DNA from: Plantibacter sp. VKM Ac-2880
GTDB taxonomy: Bacteria; Actinomycetota; Actinomycetes; Actinomycetales; Microbacteriaceae
Direction of reading: 5' to 3'
Length of the DNA stretch: 64,000 bases
NCBI RefSeq assembly: GCF_015351235.1
Contig: NZ_JADKSJ010000002.1
Coordinates: 1,054,001 to 1,118,000, forward strand
Position numbers and translations under genes: made by a program. The notes beneath the pieces are model-generated. The model saw nothing but the letters and a program-made list of their open reading frames with translations. It was not told the DNA's origin and did no database searches. Positions 15,662 to 35,584 of the stretch are shown in pieces (position 1 is the first letter of the stretch; every line of letters starts with the position of its first letter).

Positions 15662-15936
15662 TGGTCGATCCTTCATATCTCGTGCGTAGAGGCCAGGTTC
15701 AATGGCGCCCTCGCGCCTTACTCGGTCGCCCGCATTGTTGGCGTATCCATACGTACCCTAGCGATGGCCTGGGCATCGGCGGAGTATTCGCTCTTCCCCG
15801 AGGCGATCCGCATCCAAGCAGCGTTTGACGATGATTGGCGGCACGCCGACTTCTTCGAATAGTCCTAGCTGCCGAATGGAGTCAGCCCGGGACCGACATC
15901 TCCATCCGGCACTCGCAGCGGTCCTGAACAGCCCGC

Positions 15937-18900: not shown

Positions 18901-21900
18901 CACCTTGAACGAGGTCGCGTCGACGGCAAGCACGTCGCTCAGCTGGGCAAGCACCGCTCGCAGCCGTTTCTTCCGACCGAAGAAGCTCGACGCCGCAGCC
19001 TGCTCGGCGGCGTGGAGCGGTCCGGCGATGTCGCGATCGAGGATGGCTGGCATGAAGGTCGAGCGCCACTCGGCCTGGGCGTCGCGGAGCTGCTCGGCGG
19101 CAGCGAGGGCCTCGTCGAGGCGAGAGAAGTCCTCGGGCCTGGTTCCGGCCATGAGCGCGCCGATCGGCAGGCGTGGAGCGGCGACCGCGGTCGACCAGAG
19201 GCCGAGGAGGTCGGGTCGCGACGCGAGACGCAGGGCGTCCATCGGGAGGCCGGCGTCGAGCGTCGAGGCCAGGGCGGCGTTCATCGCACGGGCGGCCTGC
19301 TGCACGGTCGCGGCGTCGAGCCCGGGAGCCGAGGGGCCGTCGAGGAACGCCCACGGGTGGGTCGTGCTCGGGCGCGCGAGGTCGGAGCGCTCGGGCAGCT
19401 CGCGGAACACCTGCCGCAGCTCCTCGAAGGCCTGGGGCGTGCCGGCTGCGACGAGCTGCTCGGGGATCGCCATGGGGACGAGGTCGTGGTCCATCGCGAG
19501 CAGGCGACTCCGTGCGGAGTACAGGGAGAAGCCGGCGGCGTTGACCTCGTGGAGGCGGTCGGCATAGCGGGTGAGGGTGCGGAGACCCGACTCGGACAGC
19601 TCCCGGTTGGTGCTCAGCGCGTCGATGTCGGCCTTCGTGCGGAGGTCGAGGCCGGTCTTGATCTGCGCGCGGACGACGTTGGGCCTGGCGCCCTTGTCGT
19701 GGAGGTCGAGGGAGAACGCGCCGAGTCCGACGTCTTCGAGTCGCTGCTTCACGACGTTGAGCGCCGCACGCTTCTCGGCGACGAAGAGGACCTTCTTGCC
19801 CTCGGCGAGCGAGCGGGCGAGGAGGTTGGTGATGGTCTGCGACTTGCCGGTTCCGGGAGGGCCTTCGAGCACGAAGGTGCGGCCGGCGACCGCTTCGGCG
19901 ACGGCGTCGAGCTGGGAGGAGTCGGCGGCGACCGGGCAGTCGAGGCCGAGGCGGTCGAGGTCGGTGTCGGTCTGCGCGGGCGTGGGGTCGGCGTAGGCCT
20001 CGAGCGGCGAGTTGATGAGGTGGTCGACGAGGCTGTTGGAGGCGAGCGTCTCCCAGTTCTCGTCGAGGTCCTTCCACAGCCGGTACTTCGCGAACTGGAG
20101 GATCGACAGCGACGCCGTCTCCTCCACGCGGAACGGGAGGCCGGCGTCGACGATCGCCTGGCGCACGGCGGTGAACGCGGCCGGCAGGTCGATGCCGGAG
20201 CCGTCCTCGACGGGGTTGGCGAGTCCGGGGATCTCGAGGCCGAAGCTCAGCCGCAGCTTCTCGAGCAGGCAGTAGTTCGGGGTGGACGAGCCCGACTCGT
20301 CGAGGGTGAGACGGTAGGAGGAGCCGCGGCTCGTCGTCGTCAGCGTGACCGGCACGAGGACGAGCGGTGAGCGGAGATCGCGGTCGCCGAAACGCCAGCT
20401 CAGCATGCCGAACGCGAGGTAGAGGTTGTTGGCGCCGGTCTCCTCGACGATCGTCTTGGCCTTGTAGGCGAGGGCGCGGAGCTTCGTCGGGTAGGCGGCC
20501 TGGGTGACGTCGATGAAGGCGCTCTTCTTGTCGTCGAGGAAGGTGATGCGGTCGCTCTCGTCGAGGTCGCGGCCGAAGCGGATGCCGCGCTGCTGGTCGA
20601 TCGTGGCGACGCTGTCGGAGGCGACGAGGGTGAGCGGGGTGCCGTGGTTGATGCTGTCCTCGAGGCGGCCGAGCGCCGGGCCGGGGACGGCGAGTTCGAA
20701 GCCGGAGCGGTCGGTGTAGTTGATGAGCTTGTTGCGGAGGCTGAGGTCGAGGAGGGCGTTCTTCCAGGTGGAGACGCGCTTGGGGACGTCGGGCCCGTGG
20801 CCGGCGGCGGTCGACTCGGTGGCGGCCGGGGCGTCCTGCGTGAGGGCGCGGGCTTCGGGTGCCTGGTAGAGGGTGACGACGGGTTCGCCCTCGGCGTTGA
20901 TGCGGCGGCTGGGCAGCGGGTAGATCTTGCGGAGGCGGGCCTGGACGACGTCGGTGATGCCGATGAAGTCGTCGAGCGGGCCGGCGAGGTGTTCGGTGTG
21001 GGGCCGGCGGGAGGCGTCGGCGAAGGTGGCGGAGGTGCCGGTGAGCATGGTGGTCTCGACGACGCCGATGCGGCCGAGTTCGAGGGAGTTGACCGCTTCG
21101 GAGACGTCGGTGCTGGCGACGACGTCGAGGGTGGTCTGGACGCGCCAGTAGCCGAGGAAGATGTGGTCCTTGAGCAGCCAGAGGAGGGGGTGGATGCCGA
21201 TGGCTTCGAGGACGGACGCGAGCAGGATGGTGGTGTCGAGGCAGGTGCCGAGGTGGCTGGTGAGGACTTCCTCGGGGGTGCGGACCTTCTGGCCGCTCTG
21301 GCCCCAGCTGGCGGGCGGTTCGGCGTAGCGGATGTCGCGGGCGCGGGCGGCGTCCCAAACGGCGGCGACGATGGCGTCGATGCGGGCAGGGTCGTCGAGT
21401 TGGTAGGTGGCGAGGGAGCTGTTGCCGGTCTGCTTGTCGAGAAGGTCGGAGACCTCGAGCATGAGCTCGCTGACGACGAGGGCGTTGGGTTGCACGTGGG
21501 CGGCGAGGAGTTCGAGGCCGAGCTGCACGGGTGCGGCGATCCACTGGTTGGACGCGAGCACGGTGACGGGGCTCTCGACCGTGCCGAGCTGGGTGCCTGC
21601 GGCGTCGCGCACGGTGACGCGGATGACGCCCGGGCGCTGTTCTTCGACGAGGAGCATGCGGCGTGGGTCGAGGAGGACCTCGGGGCTGCGGAGGAGGGTG
21701 GTGCGGTCTTCGCCGAGGTCGGCGAGGAGCACCTTGGTGTCGGCGAGGGGGCCGTCGGCGGTGACGACGTCGATCTCGACGGACGCCGCCCGGCGTTCCC
21801 CGCCGTGGTTCTCGAGGACGATCTCGTCGATCACCGCGATGCTGCAGTGCGCCATCGCGTAGCTGAGCGTCGGCGTCGCGCTGACGCGGATGGAGACGGA

Positions 21901-22527
21901 GGCGGGAGCTGCGGCGGATGCGGTGCCTTCGGCGCTCTGCCCATCTTCCGCTTCGCTTTCGCTGGCTTCTCCTGTCAACGCGACCCCCTCGGTCCCTGAG
22001 CCTGTCGAAGGGCCCATCTCGCCGACGCTTCCCGCTTCGGCCGACGCAACTCCATCGGTCCCTGAGCTTGTCGAAGGGCCAACCAAAACCCGCCCTTTCA
22101 ACTCCCCCACAACCGCAGCCTGCTCCGCAGCTCCAATGCTCTCCAGCAACAACTGCATCGAATCCAACGCCCGATACGCCGACTGCTCTGTGAACCCGGT
22201 GTTGTGGGCCCAGGCGTTTCGAACCTCCCGAAGTTCACTGGCATACCCGCGAGCGCTCCGCGACAGCATGCGGTCGAACGGGTACCCCAGCTCCCCGATC
22301 CGCTCGGTCATCGCCCGGAGCATGAGTGACACGTCGGTCGCCGAGTACCGCCCGTGGCCGCTCCCGGCCGCGCGGTCCTTCTCCTCGATGATCCGAGTCC
22401 ACTCGACACCGGGCACCGCCTCGGCGAACGCACCTTCGACGACGGGGCGAAGCCCCAACCCAAGCTGCTCCAGCCCCTGGCCGACGGCGGAGTTGAGTTC
22501 AGAAGCGTCCACGTGCGGGCCTTTCAT
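15937..22527 (-). CDS. Giant HEPN / transglutaminase-like / DUF4011 / SF1 helicase / nuclease / DUF3320 protein
   Basis: A 2196-residue protein. Residues 1-140 are a Swt1-like HEPN domain with the RNAWAH (R-x4-H) motif near 104. A low-complexity linker at about 145-195 contains two translated copies of the chromosomal dispersed repeat. Then come a transglutaminase-like domain (GTCLDTT near 425, DHIFLGYW), DUF4011 (LLDLSLRNKLINY near 590) and an SF1 helicase. The helicase has Walker A EGPPGTGKS near 890, DEASQ near 1512 and GDERDTILFS and VAVTRARRQ motifs. A restriction-endonuclease-like fold follows (SDFRVDIS ... VAVLLDG near 1840), then DUF3320. Related architectures are known as single-gene anti-phage candidates. 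Start caveat: a GTG at 22512 also has a fitting AAAGG. Confidence 0.88.
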   Translation of the reverse strand: MKGPHVDASELNSAVGQGLEQLGLGLRPVVEGAFAEAVPGVEWTRIIEEKDRAAGSGHGRYSATDVSLMLRAMTERIGELGYPFDRMLSRSARGYASELREVRNAWAHNTGFTEQSAYRALDSMQLLLESIGAAEQAAVVGELKGRVLVGPSTSSGTDGVASAEAGSVGEMGPSTGSGTEGVALTGEASESEAEDGQSAEGTASAAAPASVSIRVSATPTLSYAMAHCSIAVIDEIVLENHGGERRAASVEIDVVTADGPLADTKVLLADLGEDRTTLLRSPEVLLDPRRMLLVEEQRPGVIRVTVRDAAGTQLGTVESPVTVLASNQWIAAPVQLGLELLAAHVQPNALVVSELMLEVSDLLDKQTGNSSLATYQLDDPARIDAIVAAVWDAARARDIRYAEPPASWGQSGQKVRTPEEVLTSHLGTCLDTTILLASVLEAIGIHPLLWLLKDHIFLGYWRVQTTLDVVASTDVSEAVNSLELGRIGVVETTMLTGTSATFADASRRPHTEHLAGPLDDFIGITDVVQARLRKIYPLPSRRINAEGEPVVTLYQAPEARALTQDAPAATESTAAGHGPDVPKRVSTWKNALLDLSLRNKLINYTDRSGFELAVPGPALGRLEDSINHGTPLTLVASDSVATIDQQRGIRFGRDLDESDRITFLDDKKSAFIDVTQAAYPTKLRALAYKAKTIVEETGANNLYLAFGMLSWRFGDRDLRSPLVLVPVTLTTTSRGSSYRLTLDESGSSTPNYCLLEKLRLSFGLEIPGLANPVEDGSGIDLPAAFTAVRQAIVDAGLPFRVEETASLSILQFAKYRLWKDLDENWETLASNSLVDHLINSPLEAYADPTPAQTDTDLDRLGLDCPVAADSSQLDAVAEAVAGRTFVLEGPPGTGKSQTITNLLARSLAEGKKVLFVAEKRAALNVVKQRLEDVGLGAFSLDLHDKGARPNVVRAQIKTGLDLRTKADIDALSTNRELSESGLRTLTRYADRLHEVNAAGFSLYSARSRLLAMDHDLVPMAIPEQLVAAGTPQAFEELRQVFRELPERSDLARPSTTHPWAFLDGPSAPGLDAATVQQAARAMNAALASTLDAGLPMDALRLASRPDLLGLWSTAVAAPRLPIGALMAGTRPEDFSRLDEALAAAEQLRDAQAEWRSTFMPAILDRDIAGPLHAAEQAAASSFFGRKKRLRAVLAQLSDVLAVDATSFKVKQLVPQLTEAKAAQDSLVQLRGALRSTALPLVGDRWNPLVEPTQPVRELLGWYRWLSEGFRLPGTPDDEFITAVRDHYATTQPSQETAQALTTLAGTWSEFLRAASVIAERLSAWSGGEGFLQAWWSTRDARRLDAAEPVVLERWLDLVRVIEPLRTHGLDDVRAAILAGRIETEDATLAFEKGLAQASIDERERTTTLDAFDATAHNRSVTRFTTSVKAVREELPRAIPASVLGLRTFSSQSESGQVGGLRRQIDRQRGGMSVRALLENFGELITQIMPCTLASPESVARFFPAAAELFDIVVFDEASQIRVADAIGAMGRSRSVVVVGDSKQMPPTTFAEAGATIDDEADYTSEVLQDEESILSECVQARVPSKWLSWHYRSQDESLIAFSNHHYYDSQLSSFPAPFAGAGDGGVEGHGLAFVRLDGQFERGGRGKSLRTNPVEAQAIVEEITRRFAASPDETPSLGVITFNAQQRTLIEDLLRDSTDPRIATALDEQDGLFVKNLENVQGDERDTILFSIAFSANEKGVIPLNFGPLTRAGGERRLNVAVTRARRQVVLFASFDPSELRAEQTSSIGIKHLKAYLELAQRGSDAAGEDGRRQAIIDRHRDEIADELRYAGHAVRTDVGLSDFRVDISIATEAEPDRPLVAVLLDGASWRERRTVADRDGLPIEVLSGLMRWPGVERVWLPEWLHHREEVLDRLVAAVEAAGQRAAAGRAVDVSAAGESEQAEVAAGDIDAAVGESAGGSDAVPPVRSARVREWSERLASLETLSEFRERKVGAAQPVEVVPVADTSGRHPELSEYQPWGAPTLGSIEVLDRLPGRPSVVAVQGAIRAAVEAEGPIHLTRLAKLVAGAFGLDRVAGSRAKSILDKVPAEFLGRSDEPFAWPTEIDPLTWRGARRSSADAPRAVEHISLVEIANAMAIAAEQSAGLSPDELRRETLAIFGGKRVTSAVGARLDEALEFGLSSGRLDRSGPDTIVPK
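21991..22079. repeat. Two in-frame copies of the dispersed GACAAGCTCAGGGACC-type repeat
   Basis: Copies at 21991-22013 and 22057-22079 match the intergenic repeat found elsewhere in the window (core CTGAGCYTGTCGAAGGGC). Both lie in the same orientation and in frame inside the HEPN-helicase gene. They are translated as GPSTGSGT and GPSTSSGT in its low-complexity linker. Confidence 0.9.
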
Positions 22528-23043: not shown

Positions 23044-23229
23044 ATGGCTGAAACCTGGTTCTCGACTGTTAGCAATGCACATGCCTTCGGCACAACTAAG
23101 GACACAAACCACACATCGATAGCCGATAGGGCAATGTTCAATCGCGAAGCCCGTCAACCCTGGAGTCTTCCGACAAGCGGCTTGGATGGACGAGTCCGTA
23201 ACGTAGGCACGTTTGGCGAGGGAGCTTAG
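23044..23229 (+). CDS. Small excisionase/MerR-like HTH protein, diverged or eroded
   Basis: A 61-residue ORF starting at ATG 23044 with a strong GAGGAG five bases upstream; it ends two bases before the GTG of the helicase gene. MAETWF, GTTKDT, IADRAM and DGRVRN fall where excisionase-family HTH proteins have comparable blocks (typically MAETWx...LGxTKDTxYxWIxxxxMP...W.Fk...VDxWVRxGG). The residues between them differ, including loss of the usual Trp in the recognition helix. Such small HTH genes often head helicase/methylase operons. It may be a diverged active regulator or a decaying gene. The assignment is from pattern memory, not a search. Confidence 0.45.
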   Translation: MAETWFSTVSNAHAFGTTKDTNHTSIADRAMFNREARQPWSLPTSGLDGRVRNVGTFGEGA

Positions 23230-23231
23230 TC

Positions 23232-26200
23232 GTGCGGATCATCGATAACCTCAATGACTTACTCGGCGATGACCTTCGGGCATCGATCAAGCCCGGATCG
23301 AAGCTGCGCATCGCGGCGAGCACGTTCTCGATTTTCGCGTTCGAGGCGCTCAAGGAAGAACTACAGTCGGTCGGCGCGCTCGAGTTCATCTTCACGGCGC
23401 CGTCGTTCACGACCGCGAAGGCAACCAACAAGCCGGTACCCGAGAAGCGGCAGTTCTTCATACCGAGTGACACGAACCGTGACGCAACCCTCTACGGTTC
23501 GGACTTCGAGATCAGGCTTCGCAACAAGCTGACCCAGCGGGCAATCGCGCGGGAGTGTGCGGAGTGGGTGAGGCAGAAGGTGACGTTCCGCTCGAATCAC
23601 ACGGGCGCCCCAATGCAGTCTTTCGCTGTGGTCGATGACGCCGCGGCATACGCGCCGCTTCAAGGGTTTACGACTGCGGACCTCGGCTATGAGCGCAGTC
23701 CTGCTGTGTCGAACATGGTGCAGAAGATCGACGACGCCCCGTATACGCAGCAGTACATCCAACTCTTCGACCAGATCTGGCACAACCCCGCTCAGGTAGA
23801 CGATGTAACCGAGACGGTGCGCGAGCATATTGCAAGCGTTTACGCGGAAAACTCGCCACAGCGGGTGTATTTCCTCATCTTGTACAACCTATTCAGCGAG
23901 TTCCTCGACGACATCAGCGAAGACGTCCTGCCGAACGACCTGACTGGCTACCAAGACACCGAGGTGTGGAAGGCACTGTACAACTTCCAGAAGGATGCGG
24001 CCACCGGCATCATTAACAAGCTCGAGACCTATAACGGTTGCATTCTTGCCGACAGCGTGGGCCTCGGCAAGACCTTCACTGCGCTGGCGGTAATCAAATA
24101 CTACGAGTTGCGAAATAAAAAGGTGCTGGTGCTGGCACCGAAGAAGCTCGCCGACAACTGGACAAACTATAACTCCAACTACACGACAAATATCTTCGCC
24201 AAAGACCGCTTCAACTACGACGTCCTCGCGCACACCGACCTCTCCCGCGACGGCGGGGAGTCACTCGGCAAGCGTCTCGACCTCATCAACTGGGGCAACT
24301 ACGACCTCGTCGTGATCGACGAGTCGCACAACTTCCGCAACGCCGACTACGTCGCCGAACGCGAGACGCGCTACCAGCGACTTATGCGCATGGTTATCCG
24401 CGAAGGTGTGAAGACGAAGGTCCTTATGCTGTCGGCCACCCCCGTCAATAACCGGTTCAACGATCTGCGCAACCAGCTCGCGCTTGCCTACGAAGGCGAT
24501 TCGGAACAGCTGTCCGCGAAGCTGAACCTCTCGACGACCGTCGAGGAGGTGTTCCGGCAGGCACAGCGAGTGTTCAACGATTGGTCCGACCTCGATCCGG
24601 AGGAACGCACGGCGGATGCAATCCTCGCCCGGCTCGACTTCGACTTCTTCGAGCTGCTCGACGCCGTAACGATCGCGCGCTCCCGCAAGCACATCCAAGC
24701 GTTCTACGACACCGCCGACATCGGCGCGTTCCCGGAAAGACTCAAGCCGCGTTCGATCCGGCCGCCGCTGACCGACCTCAACGACGCTCCGACGTTCAAC
24801 GAGATCTTCGAGCAGATCCAGCTGCTCACCCTCGCCGTGTATACGCCGATCTCCTACGTGTTCCCGAGCCGGCGAGAGAAGTACGAGCAGCTCTACGGTG
24901 CGGGCGCAGGAACGAACTACATGGGCGGGCAGACTGCCAATCTTGGTGCAGCCAGTCGCGAACAAGGCATCCGCAAGCTCATGACGGTAAACCTCCTGAA
25001 ACGGTTGGAGAGCAGCGTCGAAGCGTTCCGGCTCACGCTCAGCCGTCTCGAGCACACCGTTGGCGAGGCGATCGAAGCCATCGATAACCACGCGGCGAAC
25101 ATCGCCGACATCTTGTCCTCATTCACCAACATCGATGCTGACGATGACGACTTCGACTTTCCGACCAGCGGCTCCGTCGGTAAGAAGGCGCAGATCAGCC
25201 TCGCCGACATAGATATCGATTCGTGGAACCGTGACCTGGTCAACGACGGCAAGGTCATCCAGCAGCTCCTCCACTGGATCAGCGGCATCACCCCCGACCA
25301 CGACTCAAAACTCCTTGCGCTTCGAGACCTGATTAGCGACAAGTTCGCCGAACCGCTGAACGCCGGCAACCGGAAGGTGCTGATCTTCTCGGCCTTCGCT
25401 GACACCGCTGAGTACCTGTACAAGAACCTCGCGCCGACATTGAAGCAGTTCGGTCACGACACCGCGCTCGTCACAGGCCAGGGCAACCCGTCAACGACGT
25501 TGGGTAAGGGCTACGGCTTCCAGCAGGTCCTAACCATGTTCTCGCCACGGTCGAAGCAGCGAAGTGTAGTGATGCCGGAGGAGACAGGCGAGATCGATGT
25601 GCTGGTCGGAACCGATTGCATCAGCGAGGGCCAGAACCTCCAGGACTGCGACTTCCTCGTGAATTACGACATCCACTGGAACCCGGTGCGGATCATTCAG
25701 CGTTTCGGACGCATCGATCGAATAGGGTCGACCAACGCCCGCATCCAGCTCGTCAACTTCTGGCCCGATATCTCCCTTGATGAGTACATCAATCTGAAGG
25801 ATCGTGTCGAGAACCGCATGGTCGCCGCCAACCTTGGCGGCACTGGCGATGACAATATTCTTGATCCGGACTCCGGCGACGCCGCCTTCCGCAAGGAGCA
25901 GCTCCGGAAGCTCCAGGACGAGGTGATCGAACTCGAAGACGTCCGCACCGGCGTATCAATCACCGACTTGGGCCTCAACGAGTTCCGGATGGATCTCCTT
26001 GGGTACGTCAAGGAGTACGGCGACCTCGTTGCCACACCCAAAGGCCTACATGCCGTCATACCCGCGCAGGCGGCGCTGGGGCTCAAGCCCGGTGCCCTCT
26101 TTGCGATGCGGAACATCAAGGCCGACGAACACCTCAACCGCGGGAACCGCCTGCACCCGTTCTACCTCGTCTACCTAGACGATGAGGGACAAGTGATCGC

Positions 26201-26504
26201 CGACCACACGGAGGTCAAGCGTTTGCTCGATCTCATTCGCGCCGGATGCCGCAACCGCGACGAGCCAGCGTGGGAGGTGTGTCGCGTCTTCAACGGTGCC
26301 ACCCGCGACGGCGCCGACATGGGCAGGTACTCGCATCTGCTCACCGAAGCGATCCGCTCGATGATCGACGTCACCGAAGAGCGTGACCTCGACAGCCTCT
26401 TCAGCCCTGGCCACACCACCGCGCTCATGCAGGCCATCGACGGGCTCGATGACTTCGAGCTGATCGCATTCCTCGCCATCGTTAGGGAACCAGCGGATGC
26501 CTGA
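23232..26504 (+). CDS. SNF2-like helicase with N-terminal PLD-like domain
   Basis: A 1090-residue protein. The GTG start has GAGGGAG seven bases upstream. Residues 1-150 resemble the phospholipase-D-like module of helicase-related proteins (SKLRIAASTFSIFAFEAL, then GFTTADLGYE), but no HxKxxxxD motif is present. The helicase core has Walker A ADSVGLGKT near 272, VIDESHNFRN near 360, LSATPVNN near 400, GTDCISEGQNLQ near 792 and RIIQRFGRIDRIGS near 821. This is an ATP-driven DNA translocase of the SNF2/RapA-like group. Its stop overlaps the DUF4391 start by 8 bp, so it is part of the restriction operon. Confidence 0.9.
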   Translation: MRIIDNLNDLLGDDLRASIKPGSKLRIAASTFSIFAFEALKEELQSVGALEFIFTAPSFTTAKATNKPVPEKRQFFIPSDTNRDATLYGSDFEIRLRNKLTQRAIARECAEWVRQKVTFRSNHTGAPMQSFAVVDDAAAYAPLQGFTTADLGYERSPAVSNMVQKIDDAPYTQQYIQLFDQIWHNPAQVDDVTETVREHIASVYAENSPQRVYFLILYNLFSEFLDDISEDVLPNDLTGYQDTEVWKALYNFQKDAATGIINKLETYNGCILADSVGLGKTFTALAVIKYYELRNKKVLVLAPKKLADNWTNYNSNYTTNIFAKDRFNYDVLAHTDLSRDGGESLGKRLDLINWGNYDLVVIDESHNFRNADYVAERETRYQRLMRMVIREGVKTKVLMLSATPVNNRFNDLRNQLALAYEGDSEQLSAKLNLSTTVEEVFRQAQRVFNDWSDLDPEERTADAILARLDFDFFELLDAVTIARSRKHIQAFYDTADIGAFPERLKPRSIRPPLTDLNDAPTFNEIFEQIQLLTLAVYTPISYVFPSRREKYEQLYGAGAGTNYMGGQTANLGAASREQGIRKLMTVNLLKRLESSVEAFRLTLSRLEHTVGEAIEAIDNHAANIADILSSFTNIDADDDDFDFPTSGSVGKKAQISLADIDIDSWNRDLVNDGKVIQQLLHWISGITPDHDSKLLALRDLISDKFAEPLNAGNRKVLIFSAFADTAEYLYKNLAPTLKQFGHDTALVTGQGNPSTTLGKGYGFQQVLTMFSPRSKQRSVVMPEETGEIDVLVGTDCISEGQNLQDCDFLVNYDIHWNPVRIIQRFGRIDRIGSTNARIQLVNFWPDISLDEYINLKDRVENRMVAANLGGTGDDNILDPDSGDAAFRKEQLRKLQDEVIELEDVRTGVSITDLGLNEFRMDLLGYVKEYGDLVATPKGLHAVIPAQAALGLKPGALFAMRNIKADEHLNRGNRLHPFYLVYLDDEGQVIADHTEVKRLLDLIRAGCRNRDEPAWEVCRVFNGATRDGADMGRYSHLLTEAIRSMIDVTEERDLDSLFSPGHTTALMQAIDGLDDFELIAFLAIVREPADA

Positions 26505-27177
26505 GCCCACGCTGTACCGGTGGCCAGCGAGTGCTGAAGTTGGCAAATCCGTACCGAAGACAAAGTTCTACGAACGTGGCGATGTCCCTGGGGCCCTGCG
26601 TGAGAAGTTCGTCGACGACGTCCATCGCATCACGTGGGCGTACAAGCTCGCCGATATCACCATCCACCTCGCGGGTAGCGGGGCGGTTCCCGAGATCCAG
26701 GTCTTCACCATCGAGACTAAGGGCAAGGATGTCGCAGACGACGTACTCGCCGCGATCGACAGGTCCATCCACTACCCAGTGATCTTTGAAATTGCCGGCC
26801 AAGAACGGGTACGCATGACTGCGGCGCAGAAGAGTCTCGGAGGCACGATGCCTCGGATCGGAACCTACCTCACGACCGGCTGGGCTCCCGTCGACTCGCC
26901 CCGCGACCCGCTGCCCACCGCGATCGACCTCGTCGGCCTCTACGAGGCGATCATCACCAAGCTGCTGCCCCTGCAGACCAGAGACGGTGAATCGGTGTCC
27001 GCCGCCACCGGCAGAATGAACGAGGCACACAAGCTCCGGCGCGAGATCACCGCTCTAGAGAAGAGGCTGCGCGCCGAGCCTCAACTGAACCGCAAAATCG
27101 ACCTACGCAGGCAGCTCAAGGACCGTGAGGCGAGACTCGCGGAACTGACCGCCCATGCACCGAACACCAGAGGATGA
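26497..27177 (+). CDS. DUF4391 domain protein
   Basis: A 226-residue protein matching the DUF4391 pattern: an opening LYRWPASAEVGKSVPKTKFY, a VDDVHRITWAYKLADITIHL block, an ETKGKDVADDVLAAIDRSI block and a C-terminal basic coiled coil (EITALEKRLRAEPQLNRKID). The ITIHL...IQVFTIETKGK portion has a nuclease-like strand arrangement, but no catalytic assignment is made. The gene overlaps the helicase by 8 bp and the methyltransferase by 4 bp (ATGA), so translation is coupled. DUF4391 genes are repeatedly found beside helicases and type III methylases; the function is unknown. Confidence 0.85.
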   Translation: MPEPTLYRWPASAEVGKSVPKTKFYERGDVPGALREKFVDDVHRITWAYKLADITIHLAGSGAVPEIQVFTIETKGKDVADDVLAAIDRSIHYPVIFEIAGQERVRMTAAQKSLGGTMPRIGTYLTTGWAPVDSPRDPLPTAIDLVGLYEAIITKLLPLQTRDGESVSAATGRMNEAHKLRREITALEKRLRAEPQLNRKIDLRRQLKDREARLAELTAHAPNTRG

Positions 27178-29051
27178 CCGTGGATAAGCTCAAGATGCAC
27201 TCCTCCGACCTGACCGAAAAAAACGTCGATCTGATCGCCGAACTCTTCCCGACAACCGTCACCGAGTCCATGGACGCTGAAGGAATACCGCAGCGTGCGA
27301 TCGACTTTGACGCGCTCCGGCAGGAGCTCTCCAGCGAGGTTGTCGTCGTCGAGGGCGCGCAGGAGCGCTACCAGCTCGACTGGCCAGGAAAGCGCGCCGC
27401 CGCATTCGCGGCCAACGCGCCGATCACGAAGACGCTCCGGCCGGTGCGGGAAGAATCTGTCGATTTCGACACGACGAAGAACCTCTTCATCGAGGGCGAC
27501 AATCTCGAGGCGCTCAAACTTCTCCAGGAGTCCTACCTCGGCAAGATCCAGGCGATCTTTATTGATCCCCCCTACAACACGGGAAACGACTTCATCTATA
27601 ACGACAGCTTTGGCGTGACGACGCGCGAGTACATGGAACGATCTGGCCAAATCGGAACTGATGGCGAGAGGTTTGTCACCAATACAGAATCATCAGGGAG
27701 GCTCCACTCCAATTGGCTAAGCATGATCTACTCGCGACTAAAGCTGTCGCGAAATCTCCTGCGCGCAACGGGCGTCCTGTTCGTCACCATCGGAGACGCC
27801 GAGTCCGCAAACCTTCGTCGCGTTCTCGACGAAATCTTCGGCGAGAAGAACTTCGTCGCGAACATCGTCTGGCAATCACGAACCTCTATCTCGGATGACC
27901 TAGAGGTGTCACCCAACCACAACCACGTCCTTGTCTACTCACGAGACCGAGACCATCTCGCCTTCTGGGGTGAGCCGCTGAGAGAGGATGAGTACACGAA
28001 CCCCGATGGCGACCCGAGAGGGCCTTGGAAGCTGGTTCCCCTCGATGCCAATAAGCCCGGTGGAGACACACACTACGCGGTGGAGAACCCTGAAACGGGT
28101 CAGAGCTTCTGGCCACCGCAGGGCCGTTCTTGGGCGATAAACCCTCGTTCGATGCGTGCGCTGATGGACGATGGGCGGATCAAATTCGGGCTACGCGGCG
28201 ACAGTGCTCCAAAACGCAAGCTCTTCCTCGCAGAACGGAACGAGCGCGGCGATACACGAACGCCTAGCTCGATCCTTATCGATGCCGGGACAACGAAAAG
28301 CGGCAGTGAAGAGGTCGCCAGACTCTTCGGTCAGAAGGGAGTGTTCGACTACCCCAAGCCCACAGCGCTCGTACGACGCCTCCTGAGTTATGCAACGTTA
28401 GGCACCAAAGACGCTATAGTGCTCGACTTCTTCGCCGGATCAGGTACTACCGCTCAGGCGGTTCTTGAGTTAAACCTGTTAGATCAGGGAACGCGTGCTT
28501 TTATCCTTGTCCAGATGCCGGAGACGACCGCGCCGGAGTCAGCGGCAGCAAAGCTAGGATATGCAACGATTCCTGCGGTCGCGCGGCAAAGAATTCGCCT
28601 TGCTAGCGATGTTCTAGCGTCGACTGTCGATAGCGCGGACGTCGACACAGGATTCCGCTCGCTCAGAATTGACACAACCAACATGGTCGACCTCCAGGTG
28701 GGCCCCGATGACCTGGTACAGGCATCACTCGCTGGTGCAGTCGGGAGCGTAAAGTCCGATCGAACAGATGAAGACCTGCTTTTCCAGGTTTTGCTCGATT
28801 GGGGCCTAGACCTCAGCGAGCCAATCACCGTCGAGGGAGCGGGTGATCACCGTGTGCTCGCTGTCGCCGACGATGCGCTCATCGCGTGCTTTACTGACGA
28901 GGTCTCGCCCGAAGTGGTCCGCGCGATCGCGGAACGGCACCCGCTTCGAGCCGTCTTTAAGGACGCAGGTTTCGCTTCCGATGCTGCGCGGATCAATGCC
29001 GAGCAGATCTTTCGGGAACTATCTCCCGAGACAGATCTGCGCACGATATAG
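27174..29051 (+). CDS. mod: Type III restriction-modification methyltransferase (Mod)
   Basis: A 625-residue DNA methyltransferase. Motif IV DPPYNTGND lies near residue 130 and motif I DFFAGSGTTAQAV near 419. This order (IV before I) defines the beta class of N6-adenine methyltransferases to which type III Mod proteins belong. The block between about 190 and 390 is the expected target-recognition region and is visibly less GC-rich than the ends. Its start overlaps the DUF4391 stop (ATGA). Mod recognises the site and methylates one strand; with Res it would form the restriction complex. Confidence 0.93.
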   Translation: MTVDKLKMHSSDLTEKNVDLIAELFPTTVTESMDAEGIPQRAIDFDALRQELSSEVVVVEGAQERYQLDWPGKRAAAFAANAPITKTLRPVREESVDFDTTKNLFIEGDNLEALKLLQESYLGKIQAIFIDPPYNTGNDFIYNDSFGVTTREYMERSGQIGTDGERFVTNTESSGRLHSNWLSMIYSRLKLSRNLLRATGVLFVTIGDAESANLRRVLDEIFGEKNFVANIVWQSRTSISDDLEVSPNHNHVLVYSRDRDHLAFWGEPLREDEYTNPDGDPRGPWKLVPLDANKPGGDTHYAVENPETGQSFWPPQGRSWAINPRSMRALMDDGRIKFGLRGDSAPKRKLFLAERNERGDTRTPSSILIDAGTTKSGSEEVARLFGQKGVFDYPKPTALVRRLLSYATLGTKDAIVLDFFAGSGTTAQAVLELNLLDQGTRAFILVQMPETTAPESAAAKLGYATIPAVARQRIRLASDVLASTVDSADVDTGFRSLRIDTTNMVDLQVGPDDLVQASLAGAVGSVKSDRTDEDLLFQVLLDWGLDLSEPITVEGAGDHRVLAVADDALIACFTDEVSPEVVRAIAERHPLRAVFKDAGFASDAARINAEQIFRELSPETDLRTI

Positions 29052-29062
29052 ATAGCCGGCCG

Positions 29063-29497
29063 ATGACACCCACTGAATCTTCTGCAATTCTGGATTACCT
29101 CGTCACTGATTGGACGAACGAGGTCGTCGAGTTCAGAACGGCCAGCGCCAGGCACTCAACGGATAAACACGGCGAACCCTCCTCGTCGACGCAGAGCCGG
29201 CTGGCGCTGAAACAAGACGTGAAGCGGTCCATCGACCAGGGACTCACGCGCCGTGGAGTCCATGAGGGCGAGCACACGGCCTTGAGGGTTGTGCCCGCGG
29301 ACATTCCAGCTGCACCAGCCAGGCGAGGTTTCATCGGTCGGCACACCGCCCGGATAGAGATAACTGAAGATCGGCGAACATGGATAATAATAGGGCATAT
29401 CGCGCCACTCGCTGACAACGCGCATCATCCGAAACAACAGATGGGTAAGTACTGCTCAGCACCGTGGAGAAGTTTGGCGAGCCCTTGCTCCCGATGA
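29063..29497 (+). pseudogene. Eroded AlbA_2 (Schlafen-type) DNA-binding gene
   Basis: A 144-residue ORF. The opening ILDYLVTDWTNEVVEFRTAS resembles the start of AlbA_2 domains (typically ...E.VEFK.A...F..DK.GKYFSALSNEA). The later SRLALKQDVKRSIDQGLTRR and LRVVPADIPAAPARRGFIGR resemble the LK.DV...T.GLTF..V and RV..F.IPAAP.G.P segments that follow in such proteins. The central YFSALSNEA-type block expected between them is missing, and the C-terminus is unlike the family. It lies 11 bp after mod, where an ATP-binding/AlbA_2 gene could be expected. An internally deleted, decayed gene is the best reading, but the match is from memory only. Confidence 0.45.
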
Positions 29498-29576
29498 GCT
29501 TAAGCTCCGTTCGTTTGGGTTATGTTCCATCCGAAACGTCTAGAATTACCCGAATCAAACCGAAGTGGCTAACTCG

Positions 29577-32500
29577 ATGAAACTCCAATTCAAGCTCCAG
29601 CAGTATCAGACCGAAGCGGTCAACGCCGTCGTCGACGTCTTCGCCGGGCAGCCGTTCGCCGATGGCGTGAGGTACCGCGTCGACCCGGGTAGGGATATCG
29701 CACCGACCCTACTCGACGACGCAGGGCTGCGAAACACGGCGATCTCGATTCCTGCTCCGCAGTTGCTGAAGAACGTGCATGCAGTCCAAAAGGAGCGCGG
29801 GCTGCCCCTAGCAAAGACCCTTGTGGCCTCGCCGGCTGCGCCGATCAACCTAGACGTCGAGATGGAAACCGGCACCGGCAAGACGTACGTCTATATCAAG
29901 ACGATCATGGAGCTGCACAAGCGGTACGGCTGGTCGAAGTACATCGTTGTCGTGCCGACCATCGCGATCCGGGAAGGCGTGAAGAAATCCTTCGACGTCA
30001 CCGCCGACCACTTCCAGCAGCTTTACGGCACGAAGCCGCGAACGTTCGTCTACAATTCGTCTCGGCTGCACGAGCTGGAGCGATTCTCATCGAATGCCGG
30101 GGTGCAGGTGATGATCATCAACACTCAGGCGTTCAATGCGACCGGCAAAGACGCTCGCCGCATCTCCGCGGTGCTCGACGACTTCCAGTCCCGAAAGCCG
30201 ATCGATGTCATCGCTGCGAACCGGCCGATCCTGATCGTCGATGAGCCTCAGAAGATCGAAGGCGACGGCAAGAAGGCATCGAAGTCCCTGACCGCGCTGG
30301 GCATGTTCAACGCACTCTTCGCAGTCCGGTACTCGGCCACGCACAAGATCGACCGCACGAAAGTGCACCGGCTGGACGCGCTCGATGCCTACAACCAGAA
30401 GCTCGTGAAGAAGATTGCTGTGCGCGGCATCACGGTGAAGGGACTCGCGGGTAGTACCGCCTACCTGTACGTCGACGGGCTCGAAATAGGCAACGGGGCT
30501 GACTTCCCGAAGGCGCGCGTAGAGCTCGAGGTGCAGACCGCGACGGGGATCCGGCGCCAGGTCAAGCGACTTTCGCAGGGCATGAACCTACACGACCTGT
30601 CGAACGGGATCGAGGCATACAAGGGCATTTTCGTCCGCGTCGTTGATGCTAACCAGGACATAATCGAGCTGAGCAACGGCGACGTTATAACGGCCGGTCA
30701 GATTACGCACGATGTCACGGACGATGCCAAGCGGCGCATCCAGATTCGAGAAGTGATCCGCGCGCACCTCGCCAAGGAGCGGGAGCTCTACGCGCAGGGT
30801 GTAAAGGTGCTTTCGTTGTTCTTCATCGACGAAGTGGCCAAATACCGCGACTACACGCGCGAAGACACGCTCGGGGAGTACGCACGCGTCTTCGAGGATG
30901 AGTATAGGGCACTGGTCGCCGACCAGCTCGAGCAGCTCGATCTTGAAGAGGGATCCGAGCGGTATCGCGCGCACCTCGAGTCGATCTCGGTCAGGGAGAC
31001 TCACCAGGGTTACTTCTCCATCGACAAGAGGTCCGGGCATTCCATCGATGGTTCGGTGAAGAAGACCGGGGAGACCGCAGGGCAGTCGGACGATGTGGCC
31101 GCTTACGACCTCATTCTTAAAGACAAGGAACGGCTGCTGTCATTCGACGAGCCGGTGCGGTTCATCTGGTCGCACTCTGCCCTGCGCGAGGGCTGGGACA
31201 GCCCTAACGTCTTCGTTATGGGAATGCTCAAGAAGAGCGACAACACCACGACGAGGCGGCAGGAGATCGGTCGAGGGCTGCGTCTGTCGGTAGACCAGCA
31301 CGGCGAGCGTATGGACAACCACGTGACTGTGCACGACATCAATGAGCTCACGGTTGTAACCGACGAGTCGTACACCGAGTTTGTTACCGCGCTGCAGAAG
31401 GAGATCGCTGCGTCGCTCAGCGCCCGGCCACGGAAAGCGACTCCTGAGTTCTTCGCGGGCAAGATTGTCGAGGATCCAACGACCGCGGAGAAGGTTCCGA
31501 TCACCGAAGACCAAGCCAAGCAACTCCAGTTCTGGCTTACCACAAACGGCTTCATCGACTACGAACAGCACCTCACCGACAAGTGGGTCAACCGAGCCGA
31601 CATCGAGATGCCCTCTATGCCCGCAGGGCTCGACGAGTACCATTATCAGGTCGCCGAGCTAATCGATTCGTTGCACCTCGATATTCCTGCACCGGTCGAT
31701 GGACGGAAGCCGAAAAAGGTCCCGCTCAACGAAGCGAACTTTCACAAGCATGAGTTTCAGGAACTGTGGCGCCGCATCAACCACAAGGCCGTCTACCAGG
31801 TCGAGTTCGACTCGACAGAACTCATCGGCAAGTGCATTCACGCGCTTGATAAGGCGCTGAACGTCACCGTCATGCAATACGTGGTCCGAAAGGGCGTACA
31901 GCTCGCCGCCCTCGACGCTGGCCAGCTCGAGGCCGGCGACGGGTTCAAGGTCTCCACCACCAAGGTCGAGGAGTCTGCTCTATCAGCCGGCTCAACCGTG
32001 AAATATGACTTGCTCGGCGAGATCGCAGACAAGACCCACCTGACCCGACGCACGTGTGCAGCAATACTCACCGGGGCATCCCCAGAGACGTTCGCAAAGT
32101 TCAAGCAAAACCCTGAGCAGTTCATCACCGAGGCAGCCCGGATCATCAATGAGCAGAAGGCAACGGTGATAGTCGAACACCTCGCATACGATCCTCTCGA
32201 CGACCGCTATGACGACTCGATATTCACCGAGAGTCAAACAGCGCAAGACCTGTCGAAGGCAGGCGACAAGCTGAACAAGAGCGTCTACGAGTACGTGGTT
32301 ACGGACTCCAAAGTGGAACGGTCGTTCGTCACTGAACTCGACACGAGCGACGAAGTCGTCGTGTACTCAAAACTGCCGCGCGGGTTCTTCATCCCCACCC
32401 CGGTCGGTGACTACAACCCAGACTGGGCAATCGCCTTCCGCGAGGGAAGCGTCAAACACGTGTACTTCATCGCGGAGACGAAAGGCTCTATGTCGACGCT

Positions 32501-32642
32501 CCAGCTCAAGGGAATCGAGCAGGCCAAGGTCGAGTGTGCGAGGAGGTTCTTTGCCTCGATCAACTCCAGGCCCGACAATGCTGGCGTGAAGTACGACGTC
32601 GTTGACTCATACGATTCTCTCCTTCAGCTCGTCGGGGCCTGA
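29577..32642 (+). CDS. res: Type III restriction endonuclease subunit (Res)
   Basis: A protein of 1021 residues from ATG 29577 (MKLQFKLQQYQTEAV, the usual Res opening); an in-frame GTG at 29565 would add four residues. The SF2 helicase part has Walker A METGTGKTYVY near 96, IVDEPQKIEG near 218, YSATHK near 245 and QEIGRGLRLSVD near 565. The C-terminal nuclease has DYNPDWAIAF and FIAETKGS near 943 and 962, a PD...ExK arrangement. It would translocate and cut DNA together with Mod. An 80-bp gap separates it from the eroded AlbA_2-like gene, so it may have a local promoter. Confidence 0.92.
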   Translation: MKLQFKLQQYQTEAVNAVVDVFAGQPFADGVRYRVDPGRDIAPTLLDDAGLRNTAISIPAPQLLKNVHAVQKERGLPLAKTLVASPAAPINLDVEMETGTGKTYVYIKTIMELHKRYGWSKYIVVVPTIAIREGVKKSFDVTADHFQQLYGTKPRTFVYNSSRLHELERFSSNAGVQVMIINTQAFNATGKDARRISAVLDDFQSRKPIDVIAANRPILIVDEPQKIEGDGKKASKSLTALGMFNALFAVRYSATHKIDRTKVHRLDALDAYNQKLVKKIAVRGITVKGLAGSTAYLYVDGLEIGNGADFPKARVELEVQTATGIRRQVKRLSQGMNLHDLSNGIEAYKGIFVRVVDANQDIIELSNGDVITAGQITHDVTDDAKRRIQIREVIRAHLAKERELYAQGVKVLSLFFIDEVAKYRDYTREDTLGEYARVFEDEYRALVADQLEQLDLEEGSERYRAHLESISVRETHQGYFSIDKRSGHSIDGSVKKTGETAGQSDDVAAYDLILKDKERLLSFDEPVRFIWSHSALREGWDSPNVFVMGMLKKSDNTTTRRQEIGRGLRLSVDQHGERMDNHVTVHDINELTVVTDESYTEFVTALQKEIAASLSARPRKATPEFFAGKIVEDPTTAEKVPITEDQAKQLQFWLTTNGFIDYEQHLTDKWVNRADIEMPSMPAGLDEYHYQVAELIDSLHLDIPAPVDGRKPKKVPLNEANFHKHEFQELWRRINHKAVYQVEFDSTELIGKCIHALDKALNVTVMQYVVRKGVQLAALDAGQLEAGDGFKVSTTKVEESALSAGSTVKYDLLGEIADKTHLTRRTCAAILTGASPETFAKFKQNPEQFITEAARIINEQKATVIVEHLAYDPLDDRYDDSIFTESQTAQDLSKAGDKLNKSVYEYVVTDSKVERSFVTELDTSDEVVVYSKLPRGFFIPTPVGDYNPDWAIAFREGSVKHVYFIAETKGSMSTLQLKGIEQAKVECARRFFASINSRPDNAGVKYDVVDSYDSLLQLVGA

Positions 32643-32873: not shown

Positions 32874-33425
32874 TCACCTCCGCTCCACATCCAACAACGC
32901 ATCCACCGACCCGACCTCCGCAACGAGCGCATCCCACCCACGCTCCCCCGCGACCGCGGCCTCGCCGTCGGTGAGCAACCGCAGTGTCCGCACGTGCCCG
33001 ACCACCTGGCCGGCCTCGTTCCGGATATCGTCGAACGACGCTCCCCAGCGCGACGGCGTCACCAGAAGCGCTGAGATCGCCGTCCCGTTGAGGAACGGTG
33101 TCCCGTTACGCCACGGCGCGAGCACCGGTGGCACCCGACGGTTGGTCGCGATCTCGTTGATCACGATGCGCAGCGCGACCATCGCGGCACCCTGCTGACC
33201 GTCGACGATCTCCACCGCGAGCTCGATCCGCTCACCGGAGTCGGTCTCCAGCCGAGACACGCCGGATGTGAGGATCGTCACAGGCCCGTCCTCAGGTCGC
33301 TTCTCGATCACCATCACCGACCCACCGATGCGGTCCTTGAACACCACCGGATCCAAGCCCAGGGCATCGAAAATGTGGAGCGGGAAGGCGTTTTCGCCCG
33401 GGACGAGAGGGACATCGTTGCTCAT
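32874..33425 (-). CDS. Hypothetical protein, possibly SUFU-like
   Basis: A 183-residue soluble protein without signal peptide or membrane segment. Conserved-looking blocks are TSGVSRLETDSGERIELAVE, NRRVPPVLAPWRN and TPSRWGASFDDIR. The layout, with a Trp/Pro-rich middle and a strand-rich N-half, recalls bacterial suppressor-of-fused (SUFU) domain proteins, but I cannot confirm this. It is the first chromosomal gene right of the type III operon, with a 231-bp gap in which nothing was recognised. Confidence 0.6.
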   Translation of the reverse strand: MSNDVPLVPGENAFPLHIFDALGLDPVVFKDRIGGSVMVIEKRPEDGPVTILTSGVSRLETDSGERIELAVEIVDGQQGAAMVALRIVINEIATNRRVPPVLAPWRNGTPFLNGTAISALLVTPSRWGASFDDIRNEAGQVVGHVRTLRLLTDGEAAVAGERGWDALVAEVGSVDALLDVERR

Positions 33426-34306: not shown

Positions 34307-35584
34307 CTACCCGCGCAGCACACCGGCCTGCTCGACAGCCGGCGCCGGCGGCCCGAGTCGAGGGCTCCCGCTGCCGGTGTCGCCTCCCCCGACCCGGTTG
34401 CTCCGTTCGGTGAGGCTGACCAGAGCGAGGTGCTGATCCGCCGTCCAACAGACCAACCTTCCCTTGTGGTCCTTGGTGCGGCCGAGGATGCCGGCCTCGG
34501 CGAGCTGCACCAGCGCTCGATGCGCCGCACCCGGAGACACCTCGTGCTGGACAGCCACCGTCTCGATGGTCAACACCGGGTCCGTCGCGAGCGCATCGAG
34601 GATCTTCAAGATCACGGCGTCGCTCCGCGGGACAGCCGGCTTGATTCCGCTGTCTTCACGGAAGCGGATCAGGTCCGCACGCACGCGGATGTCGAGCCGT
34701 TCGATGTCTTCCGAGAGACGCACGGCGTTGCCAGCGGCCAGCTCCGCAGCTTCCGCGAAGCCGACGATCCAGTCATCGAGGCGCGACGGGATGTCTCGAT
34801 ACGCCGTCAGCCCCGCGATGTAGCGATCAGTGTCGCCTGCGAACACCGTGCTGATCGGAATGAGGGTGTTCCGCAACGCATCGGCCCGACGAAGGACGGT
34901 GTGGATGAGCGCTCGACCGGTTCTTCCGTTGCCATCGATGAAGGGGTGGATCGTCTCGAACTGCGCGTGAGCGATCGCGGCGCGAACGACCGGGTTCCCC
35001 GAGGTCGCCGTGACGAATCGAGCGAGGTCATCGACCAGCCGACCGACCTCTTCCGGTGGCGGTGGCACGAACTCGGCACGCAGCGGACTCCAGCCTGGCC
35101 CACCCACCCAGTTCTGCTCGGCTCTCAAGCCAGGTCGTAGGCGCGGTTCGATGATGTGCTGCAGGCGCTCGATGCCTGAGGTGGTCACCGCGCGGCCCCG
35201 GTCGCCCAGCTCCGCGATCGCCTGCTCGGTGGCTCGCACGTTCGCGACGACGTCGAGCGCGACCCGGGTGCCCCGCTCGAGGAGCTCGGCGATGGCGAGC
35301 TTCTTCGGGGTCACACTGTTCCCCTCGATCCACGACGAGGAAATGCTCTCAGAACGGATCAACAGGTGGTTGAGGAATCGACCTCGTGGCCCGATTCGTT
35401 CGTCGGCGCGAGCCAACACCGCCAGAGCATCCTCGGCCGCCTGACGCGCCGCTGGGCCGATGTCGGGCAGCCCCTCGCCGAGCAGGCCGGGAACGAATGC
35501 CCGGTAGCGGCCCGGCGCGCGGTCCTTGCGCCCGAGATGGGAGCTGTCCTCCGGGTTCCAGAGCAGGTCGACGTAGTGCGCCAT
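34307..35584 (-). CDS. Fic family protein (class II layout) with C-terminal winged helix
   Basis: A 425-residue protein; AGGAGG lies six bases before the ATG. The Fic core motif HPFIDGNGRTGR is complete near residues 210-221, so AMP transfer is feasible. Upstream, SSSWIEGN near 80 is the inhibitory S/T-x3-E-G-N helix of class II Fic proteins, which controls ATP binding in cis. The C-terminal part (AVILKILDALATDP, then HEVSPGAAHRALVQLAEAGI) is a winged-helix DNA-binding domain. This suggests autoregulation or a nucleic-acid-linked target. The gene sits between the two MmpS-like paralogues. Confidence 0.9.
   Translation of the reverse strand: MAHYVDLLWNPEDSSHLGRKDRAPGRYRAFVPGLLGEGLPDIGPAARQAAEDALAVLARADERIGPRGRFLNHLLIRSESISSSWIEGNSVTPKKLAIAELLERGTRVALDVVANVRATEQAIAELGDRGRAVTTSGIERLQHIIEPRLRPGLRAEQNWVGGPGWSPLRAEFVPPPPEEVGRLVDDLARFVTATSGNPVVRAAIAHAQFETIHPFIDGNGRTGRALIHTVLRRADALRNTLIPISTVFAGDTDRYIAGLTAYRDIPSRLDDWIVGFAEAAELAAGNAVRLSEDIERLDIRVRADLIRFREDSGIKPAVPRSDAVILKILDALATDPVLTIETVAVQHEVSPGAAHRALVQLAEAGILGRTKDHKGRLVCWTADQHLALVSLTERSNRVGGGDTGSGSPRLGPPAPAVEQAGVLRG

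Follow-up and report, generated by a model that had tools for sequence, protein, structure and literature searches.

A four-gene form of type III restriction-modification loci in which an SNF2-type helicase and a DUF4391 protein accompany Mod and Res

We analysed a stretch of 64,000 nucleotides from the actinomycete Plantibacter sp. VKM Ac-2880 (contig NZ_JADKSJ010000002.1, positions 1,054,001 to 1,118,000; this whole stretch is called the window below, and positions are counted from its first letter), which carries a type III restriction-modification (RM) locus with two additional genes. Six open reading frames (ORFs) of 61, 1090, 226, 625, 144 and 1025 amino acids (aa) lie head to tail on the + strand between 23044 and 32642, where an earlier note, made from the sequence alone, had placed them. 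Four of these make up the unit considered here: a helicase of the SNF2/RapA type (23232..26504, +), a DUF4391 protein (26497..27177, +), the methyltransferase Mod (27174..29051, +) and the restriction subunit Res (29565..32642, +). The remaining two, a probably decayed gene at 23044..23229 and a remnant at 29063..29497 (both +), are treated below. The overlaps given in that note are exact, with 8 base pairs (bp) shared by the helicase and DUF4391 genes and 4 bp by DUF4391 and mod; its span is corrected in that the helicase starts at 23232 and not at 23044.

Mod matches the PADLOC family MTase_III (E=1e-200) and, among solved structures, 6k0w (E=8e-70) and the EcoP15I Mod in 4zcf (E=4e-53). Its assignment to the beta class holds, since IDPPYNTGND (from residue 130) precedes DFFAGSGTT (from residue 418), and this order of motifs marks the beta-class methyltransferases. 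Res matches PADLOC REase_III (E=0), the endonuclease domain RE_endonuc (PF19778, E=5e-32) and the EcoP15I Res (4zcf chain C, E=7e-64), and retains METGTGKTY, DEPQ, YNPDW and AETKG of its superfamily 2 (SF2) motor and PD...ExK endonuclease domain. The locus thus has a Mod of the type III amino-methyltransferase family next to a Res that combines a motor with a PD-(D/E)xK domain, and both proteins are clear relatives of the EcoP15I subunits with intact motifs.

The 1090-aa helicase matches the Pfam families SNF2-rel_dom and Helicase_C and, over residues 175–1081, the PADLOC model PDLC01075 of family C3a139, “HKD+Snf2” (E=2e-128, 428 bits). The residues of its core motifs are identical in 65 of 65 aligned sequences, and no nuclease family matches it above the Pfam cut-off; the predicted protein has all SF2 motor motifs and no recognisable nuclease motif. 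The identity of the DUF4391 protein proposed in the earlier note is secured by PF14335 (E=1.7e-42, 146.4 bits against a gathering cut-off of 29.9, residues 9–214). A confident AlphaFold2 model from a 95-sequence alignment (predicted local distance difference test score 94.5, predicted template modelling score 0.87) shows an alpha/beta domain at about residues 1–157, followed by two long C-terminal helices (167–193 and 197–218); a sequence search of solved structures gave no match with an E-value of 1 or below. In the accessible part of one publication DUF4391 appears as a table entry with no role given (PMC7784981), and no other mention was found in the literature searched, a limited library.

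To follow the unit in other organisms we entered from both of its additional genes. From the helicase side, a pattern scan of one genome per species (84,980 species), seeded by an alignment (A2), gave 80 genome loci, the best of at least 554 relatives. Where at least 9 kilobases (kb) of downstream sequence were available, 62 of 63 of these loci have the four genes on a single strand and in the order seen in the window; only L071 departs from this, with DUF4391, a piece of Mod and no Res. The 17 loci with less than 9 kb downstream comprise 12 with all four genes, three with the helicase only, one with helicase and DUF4391, and one without Res. Here “all four” means that all were detected, and a few such loci have broken or cut genes. 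Viral contigs gave 76 further loci, some of them near-duplicates, of which 48 had sufficient room; 39 of these 48 carry all four genes (36 by our profiles and three through the Pfam model of DUF4391), and three lack Res (L140, L142 and L154). Wherever all four were detected, order and strand are kept (74/74 genome loci and 45/45 viral-contig loci).

From the DUF4391 side, 14 loci were collected besides that of the window, 12 from 396 genomes drawn evenly across the phylum, of which 13 encode DUF4391, and two from closer relatives. Mod neighbours DUF4391 in 13 of the 14, the helicase in 12, Res in 11 and all three in 10; one of the 14 loci (L027) is a contig of 4.2 kb. In the same 396 genomes, matches to the C3a139 family above 350 bits number 11 (the next best has 262 bits), and all 11 adjoin DUF4391, that of the window included. 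Res matches above 840 bits number 14, of which 12 lie in genomes with DUF4391 and 11 of these are linked to it; Res matches of 290–780 bits add nine genomes, none with DUF4391. Counted together, 23 genomes have a Res above 290 bits, 12 of them also have DUF4391, and in 11, the window's genome included, the two are linked. By this count, which depends on a single Res model, the four-gene form accounts for a large share of the type III loci found and leaves some outside it. A further 38 plasmid records contain DUF4391, and the eight annotated ones that were opened all show the order helicase–DUF4391–Mod–Res, several with extra genes.

The earlier note had seen the helicase and DUF4391 as components of a larger system and had named a genome-wide search for the gene order as the check; the co-occurrence found, nearly complete from the helicase side and 10/14 from the DUF4391 side, speaks for that proposal. 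The predicted helicase and DUF4391 genes are near-constant next-door partners, the four predicted genes form a conserved and often overlapping unit, and the conservation of their order is far beyond chance. Because this order recurs across many distantly related bacteria, the two additional genes are very probably working parts of the type III system, and we have little doubt that the four-gene unit is real and functional as a unit.

By record title, the sequences in a tree of 65 Res proteins (64 loci and the window) belong to nine groups at phylum rank, a candidate division among them. A branch with 100% support sets the Actinomycetota apart from the rest, the Res of the window clusters among Microbacteriaceae sequences, and the Pseudomonadota require at least four changes on this tree. 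Plasmids, among them some of Escherichia and Acinetobacter, carry the four-gene form too; the version from an Escherichia coli plasmid was matched in 10 of 5426 E. coli genomes (nine of them over at least 80% of its length), and 10 of the 11 places matched are plasmid-borne.

The evolutionary distances of the four proteins were compared across 65 loci. Correlations between distance matrices are 0.90 for helicase and DUF4391, 0.88 for helicase and Res and 0.84 for DUF4391 and Res, and 0.52–0.59 for the pairs that include Mod; the largest value in 999 permutations per pair was 0.17. Among 12 pairs of loci chosen by hand from the tree, those from Arthrobacter and Leucobacter share 98% identity in the helicase, 90% in DUF4391, 97% in Res and 57% in Mod; the corresponding values are 88, 92, 95 and 61% for Stenotrophomonas and Plasticicumulans, and 87, 87, 87 and 55% for Paracoccus and a sphingomonad. 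The differences in Mod are concentrated in its middle: in steps of 50 alignment columns, the identity between the Arthrobacter and Leucobacter proteins is 88, 96, 94, 66, 42, 12, 28, 18, 34, 58, 50, 98, 6 and 12%, the last approximately 75 columns thus differing as well. The same dip, to 2–36% in mid-protein, is seen in the other six Mod pairs inspected. By analogy with EcoP15I, we take the middle of Mod to be the recognition domain.

Five pairs of loci, L063/L106, L046/L047, L059/L078, L053/L108 and L043/L044, show strong differences in the Mod middle over a nearly alike helicase, DUF4391 and Res. These pairs, which come mostly from different families, are by the same analogy putative natural specificity swaps. 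The high correlation among helicase, DUF4391 and Res, together with the exchange of the Mod middle, suggests that the unit is often a chassis on which specificity is exchanged, and that the helicase and DUF4391 do not follow specificity.

Additional genes are frequently found within the unit. In the 74 genome loci with all four genes, gaps of more than 500 bp occur between helicase and DUF4391 in three, between DUF4391 and Mod in 12 and between Mod and Res in 34. Mechanical collection of ORFs of at least 130 aa from such gaps gave 90 proteins, of which the 53 from genome loci were scanned and the 37 from viral contigs left out: SLFN_AlbA_2 was matched by 16, RhuM by six, Bro-N by three, GmrSD_N, Fic and PIN by two each, and DUF2130, DUF4276, YhcG, HEPN, Abi_2, SIR2 and others by one each. 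Tandem Mod genes with a single Res in one operon occur in L024, L028, L041, L045, L063, L106, L116, L122 and L182. We read the space between Mod and Res, and more rarely the one between DUF4391 and Mod, as a docking site for further effectors, among them AlbA_2/Schlafen and RhuM genes.

In the window, the Mod–Res gap holds the ORF at 29063..29497, for which no Pfam match was obtained up to E=0.1. Its identification in the earlier note as an AlbA_2-like remnant can be upheld, as 29063–29317 aligns with the first ~120 residues of intact genes occupying this gap in relatives (best match: residues 3–122 of the 581-aa gap protein of L063, 62 bits, 35% identity, E=3e-17 by tblastn in a 600-base target). 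Upstream of the helicase, the ORF at 23044..23229 shares position and length with helix-turn-helix (HTH) genes of relatives, including an intact one in L024, and aligns without gaps over 53–56 aa at 32–37% identity with five of 10 HTH seeds (E down to 3e-9, in a tiny set); the profile of these genes gives it no significant score (8.5 bits, E=0.39), whereas the L024 gene reaches 113 bits. It is probably a decayed HTH gene of the excisionase type. An HTH gene of this sort is present no more than 2.5 kb upstream in 22 of the 80 genome loci and 23 of the 76 viral loci, mostly adjoining the helicase. The window and L024 share 87% identity in the helicase, 67% in DUF4391 and 82% in Res, and 54 and 48% with the two Mods of L024. 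In the window, then, one docked gene, and probably the upstream HTH gene too, has decayed, and the four core genes are intact.

The G+C content is 58–62% in steps of 2 kb from 22 to 32 kb and 66–72% across most of the window, with a second low zone (59–62%) at 12–16 kb. DUF4391 was found in none of six congeneric genomes searched; taken together with the low G+C, this makes the unit look acquired. Next to it lies a second defence candidate, a 2196-aa protein (15937–22527, −) with HEPN_Swt1, DUF4011, AAA_11/AAA_12, REase MTES_1575 and DUF3320 domains, whose best PADLOC match is PDC-S37 (E=2e-278), with Hhe also matched. A GmrSD_N protein resembling HEC-05 (13871–15676, −) lies on one side and a SoFic-like Fic protein (34307–35584, −) on the other, and because of these two flanking genes the unit seems to be placed in a defence island. 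Directly downstream of Res, on the opposite strand, is a gene for a SUFU-domain protein (32874–33425, −).

For the function of the additional genes we lean, with modest confidence, towards a type III variant in which an SNF2-type motor together with DUF4391 serves restriction independently of the choice of site. Mod2–Res complexes would recognise, methylate and cleave DNA as in EcoP15I, the helicase would translocate along double-stranded DNA and have no nuclease, and DUF4391 may be its coupling subunit. The pair would take part in restriction regardless of sequence, for instance stripping bound proteins off invading DNA or aiding Res complexes in engaging it; that it takes no part in site choice is suggested by the tendency of helicase, DUF4391 and Res to move together while the middle of Mod is exchanged. 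More tentatively, and at somewhat less than an even chance, these loci may represent a distinct and widespread subtype, with a site-blind second motor and an obligatory adaptor coupled to Res, a swappable Mod middle and gaps that dock effectors, DUF4391 being the adaptor between the two motors.

A number of observations weigh against a motor that serves restriction. A sister kind of type III system with a third helicase has been described, and according to the accessible part of that report, partly purified Eco86II contained no peptides of the third helicase and still cut partially, and the helicase was dispensable for methylation (Murray et al. 2021, PMC8259958); such a helicase may hence act apart from Mod and Res, and the missing peptides speak against a stable complex. 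The distance correlations partly reflect shared ancestry and come without an unrelated control gene, only the first Mod of tandem loci entered them, and the partial correlation between DUF4391 and Res given the helicase is only 0.21. DUF4391 has the largest mean distance (0.58, against 0.51 for Mod) and is less alike than Mod in four of the 12 chosen pairs, one being Virgisporangium and Tessaracoccus (helicase 67%, DUF4391 47%, Mod 57%, Res 91%). Distant helicases are under-sampled, since the genome set was limited to the 80 best of at least 554 relatives. Among the viral loci with room, L188 has helicase and DUF4391 without Mod or Res, L178 combines the helicase with Res alone, and L172, L174, L180 and L187 have nothing but the helicase. 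One of the 14 DUF4391 loci (L025, in genome G039) has none of the other three genes in the 20 kb retrieved and is the sole such case; L030 has no helicase in view, and the Res of L029 is unlinked, more than 120 kb away in the same genome. Broken copies are seen for the helicase of L035 and the Res of L075 and L091. Finally, the fold matches shown for DUF4391 cover its C-terminal part only and the alpha/beta domain has none, so that the designation as coupling subunit is left with the C-terminal helices and the constant pairing as its basis.

Part of this evidence would suit a self-standing two-gene anti-phage module, packaged in the same operon as Mod and Res as an additional layer of defence and not acting on them, an explanation that we consider unlikely while giving it appreciable weight. 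Helicase and DUF4391 are the pair least often separated, the operons hold other add-on effectors, L188 shows the two genes on their own despite room downstream, and the absence of the third helicase from the Eco86II preparation (PMC8259958, accessible part) points the same way. A module of this sort should, however, stand alone more often than it does: a Mod match is present in all 63 genome loci with room (in L071 a piece only), a single DUF4391 locus of the 14 (L025) lacks Mod, and the six viral loci of 48 without Mod include four with distant helicases (37–40% identity). The helicase distances also track those of Res beyond DUF4391 (partial correlation 0.54 once DUF4391 is accounted for). 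The correlation of helicase and DUF4391 distances with those of Res (0.88 and 0.84) would also suit a safety or control device, which restrains or resets Res on the replicating DNA of the host, or regulates establishment, in place of boosting restriction, and the HTH gene upstream in 22/80 genome loci indicates that regulation belongs to some operons. We hold this to be improbable, as an ATP-driven motor of 1090 aa is a costly control part and Res can persist without DUF4391, which is missing from 11 of the 23 genomes with Res above 290 bits.

Ordinary linkage, that is, unrelated neighbours gathered in a defence island, might be suggested by the defence-type genes nearby in the window (PDC-S37/Hhe-like, GmrSD_N and SoFic-like), yet we give it almost no credence: it is contradicted by the loci found through DUF4391, those found through the helicase, the adjacency in 396 genomes and the distance correlations, and would have to accommodate a single order in 74 of 74 complete genome loci from nine groups at phylum rank, overlapping reading frames, and helicase, DUF4391 and Res proteins that are nearly the same in members of different families. 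There is also the question of whether the helicase is itself a nuclease. The earlier note had given it a phospholipase D (PLD)-like N-terminus, in line with the PADLOC family name “HKD+Snf2” and with HKD–helicase fusions to which two reports, in their accessible parts, assign an effector role in systems related to Dnd/Pbe and BREX (PMC10853773, PMC12839542). A PLD nuclease–helicase is nevertheless very improbable here, and an active PLD-like N-terminus is not supported, since HxKx4(D/E) occurs in none of 77 aligned N-termini, no Pfam PLD family is matched and the PADLOC match omits residues 1–174.

Textbooks present type III restriction as the work of an enzyme encoded by two genes, which methylates one strand at an asymmetric site and, with ATP, cleaves where unmodified sites are inverted. 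The unit resembles the EcoP15I/EcoPI kind in its Mod and Res, which are relatives of those in 4zcf with intact motifs and have mod preceding res, and differs from it in the helicase and DUF4391 genes added upstream within the unit and in the effector genes that its gaps may hold. An SNF2-type helicase paired with a DNA methyltransferase is also part of the content of DISARM (DrmD, DrmMI and others). The helicase of the window reaches only 146.7 and 92.6 bits against the DrmD cut-offs of 610 and 950, none of the six window ORFs scanned has DrmA, DrmB or DrmC as its best family, and Mod and Res are of type III, so that membership in DISARM was ruled out. A likeness to MADS is confined to the upstream HTH proteins of L024 and L016, which resemble MAD1 at 72.3 and 73.1 bits, below the cut-off of 80; with no MADS family among the NCBIfam matches of the six window ORFs, membership was rejected here too. 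The PADLOC family C3a139 covers the helicase from residue 175 onwards, the HKD catalytic motif being absent, and no output linked this family to type III RM.

Among the closest described relatives are type III systems that carry a helicase-like ATPase as a third gene, such as BspHIV and Eco86II, a conserved association found in more than 500 genomes according to the accessible part of Murray et al. (2021, PMC8259958). Like the unit in the window, these have an SF2 helicase gene without a nuclease motif 5′ of mod and res; there, however, the helicase lies immediately 5′ of mod, with a gap of ~140 bp in BspHIV (PMC8259958, same part) into which DUF4391 does not fit, whereas here DUF4391 stands between the two.

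Loci of a corresponding layout were also seen in our searches. L194, L195 and L202 have a DrmD_b-like SNF2 helicase upstream of a type III Mod and Res and no match to the DUF4391 profile. Related helicases lie upstream of a methyltransferase gene in L204–L208 (that of L207 being DrmD_b-like on scanning), and in L204 and L206–L208, from Salmonella and E. coli, a DEAD/DEAH gene follows the methyltransferase and no DUF4391 is annotated. In this layout the methyltransferase and the Res-like gene follow the helicase either at once or after intervening effector genes; one such helicase has partial DNA matches (60–80% identity) in 244 of 5426 E. coli genomes and near-identical ones in two. The HTH gene of L207 (6554–6754), with SNF2, Abi, AIPR, methyltransferase and DEAD/DEAH neighbours, is named MAD1 by NCBI (81.3 bits, cut-off 80), a label that may mislead, as none of the three further L207 proteins scanned matches a MADS family. 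The loci of this layout may belong to the group of Murray et al.

No published record of a type III form bearing DUF4391 was found in the limited library searched, and the form with helicase and DUF4391 is a variant different from the third-helicase form described in 2021. Set against the two-gene textbook enzyme, it is a four-gene version spread over nine groups at phylum rank and on plasmids. Its constant partner gene, DUF4391, makes the role of the third helicase, a question raised in 2021, testable, and the chassis with its exchanged Mod middles would provide a natural series of specificities over a near-identical helicase, DUF4391 and Res.

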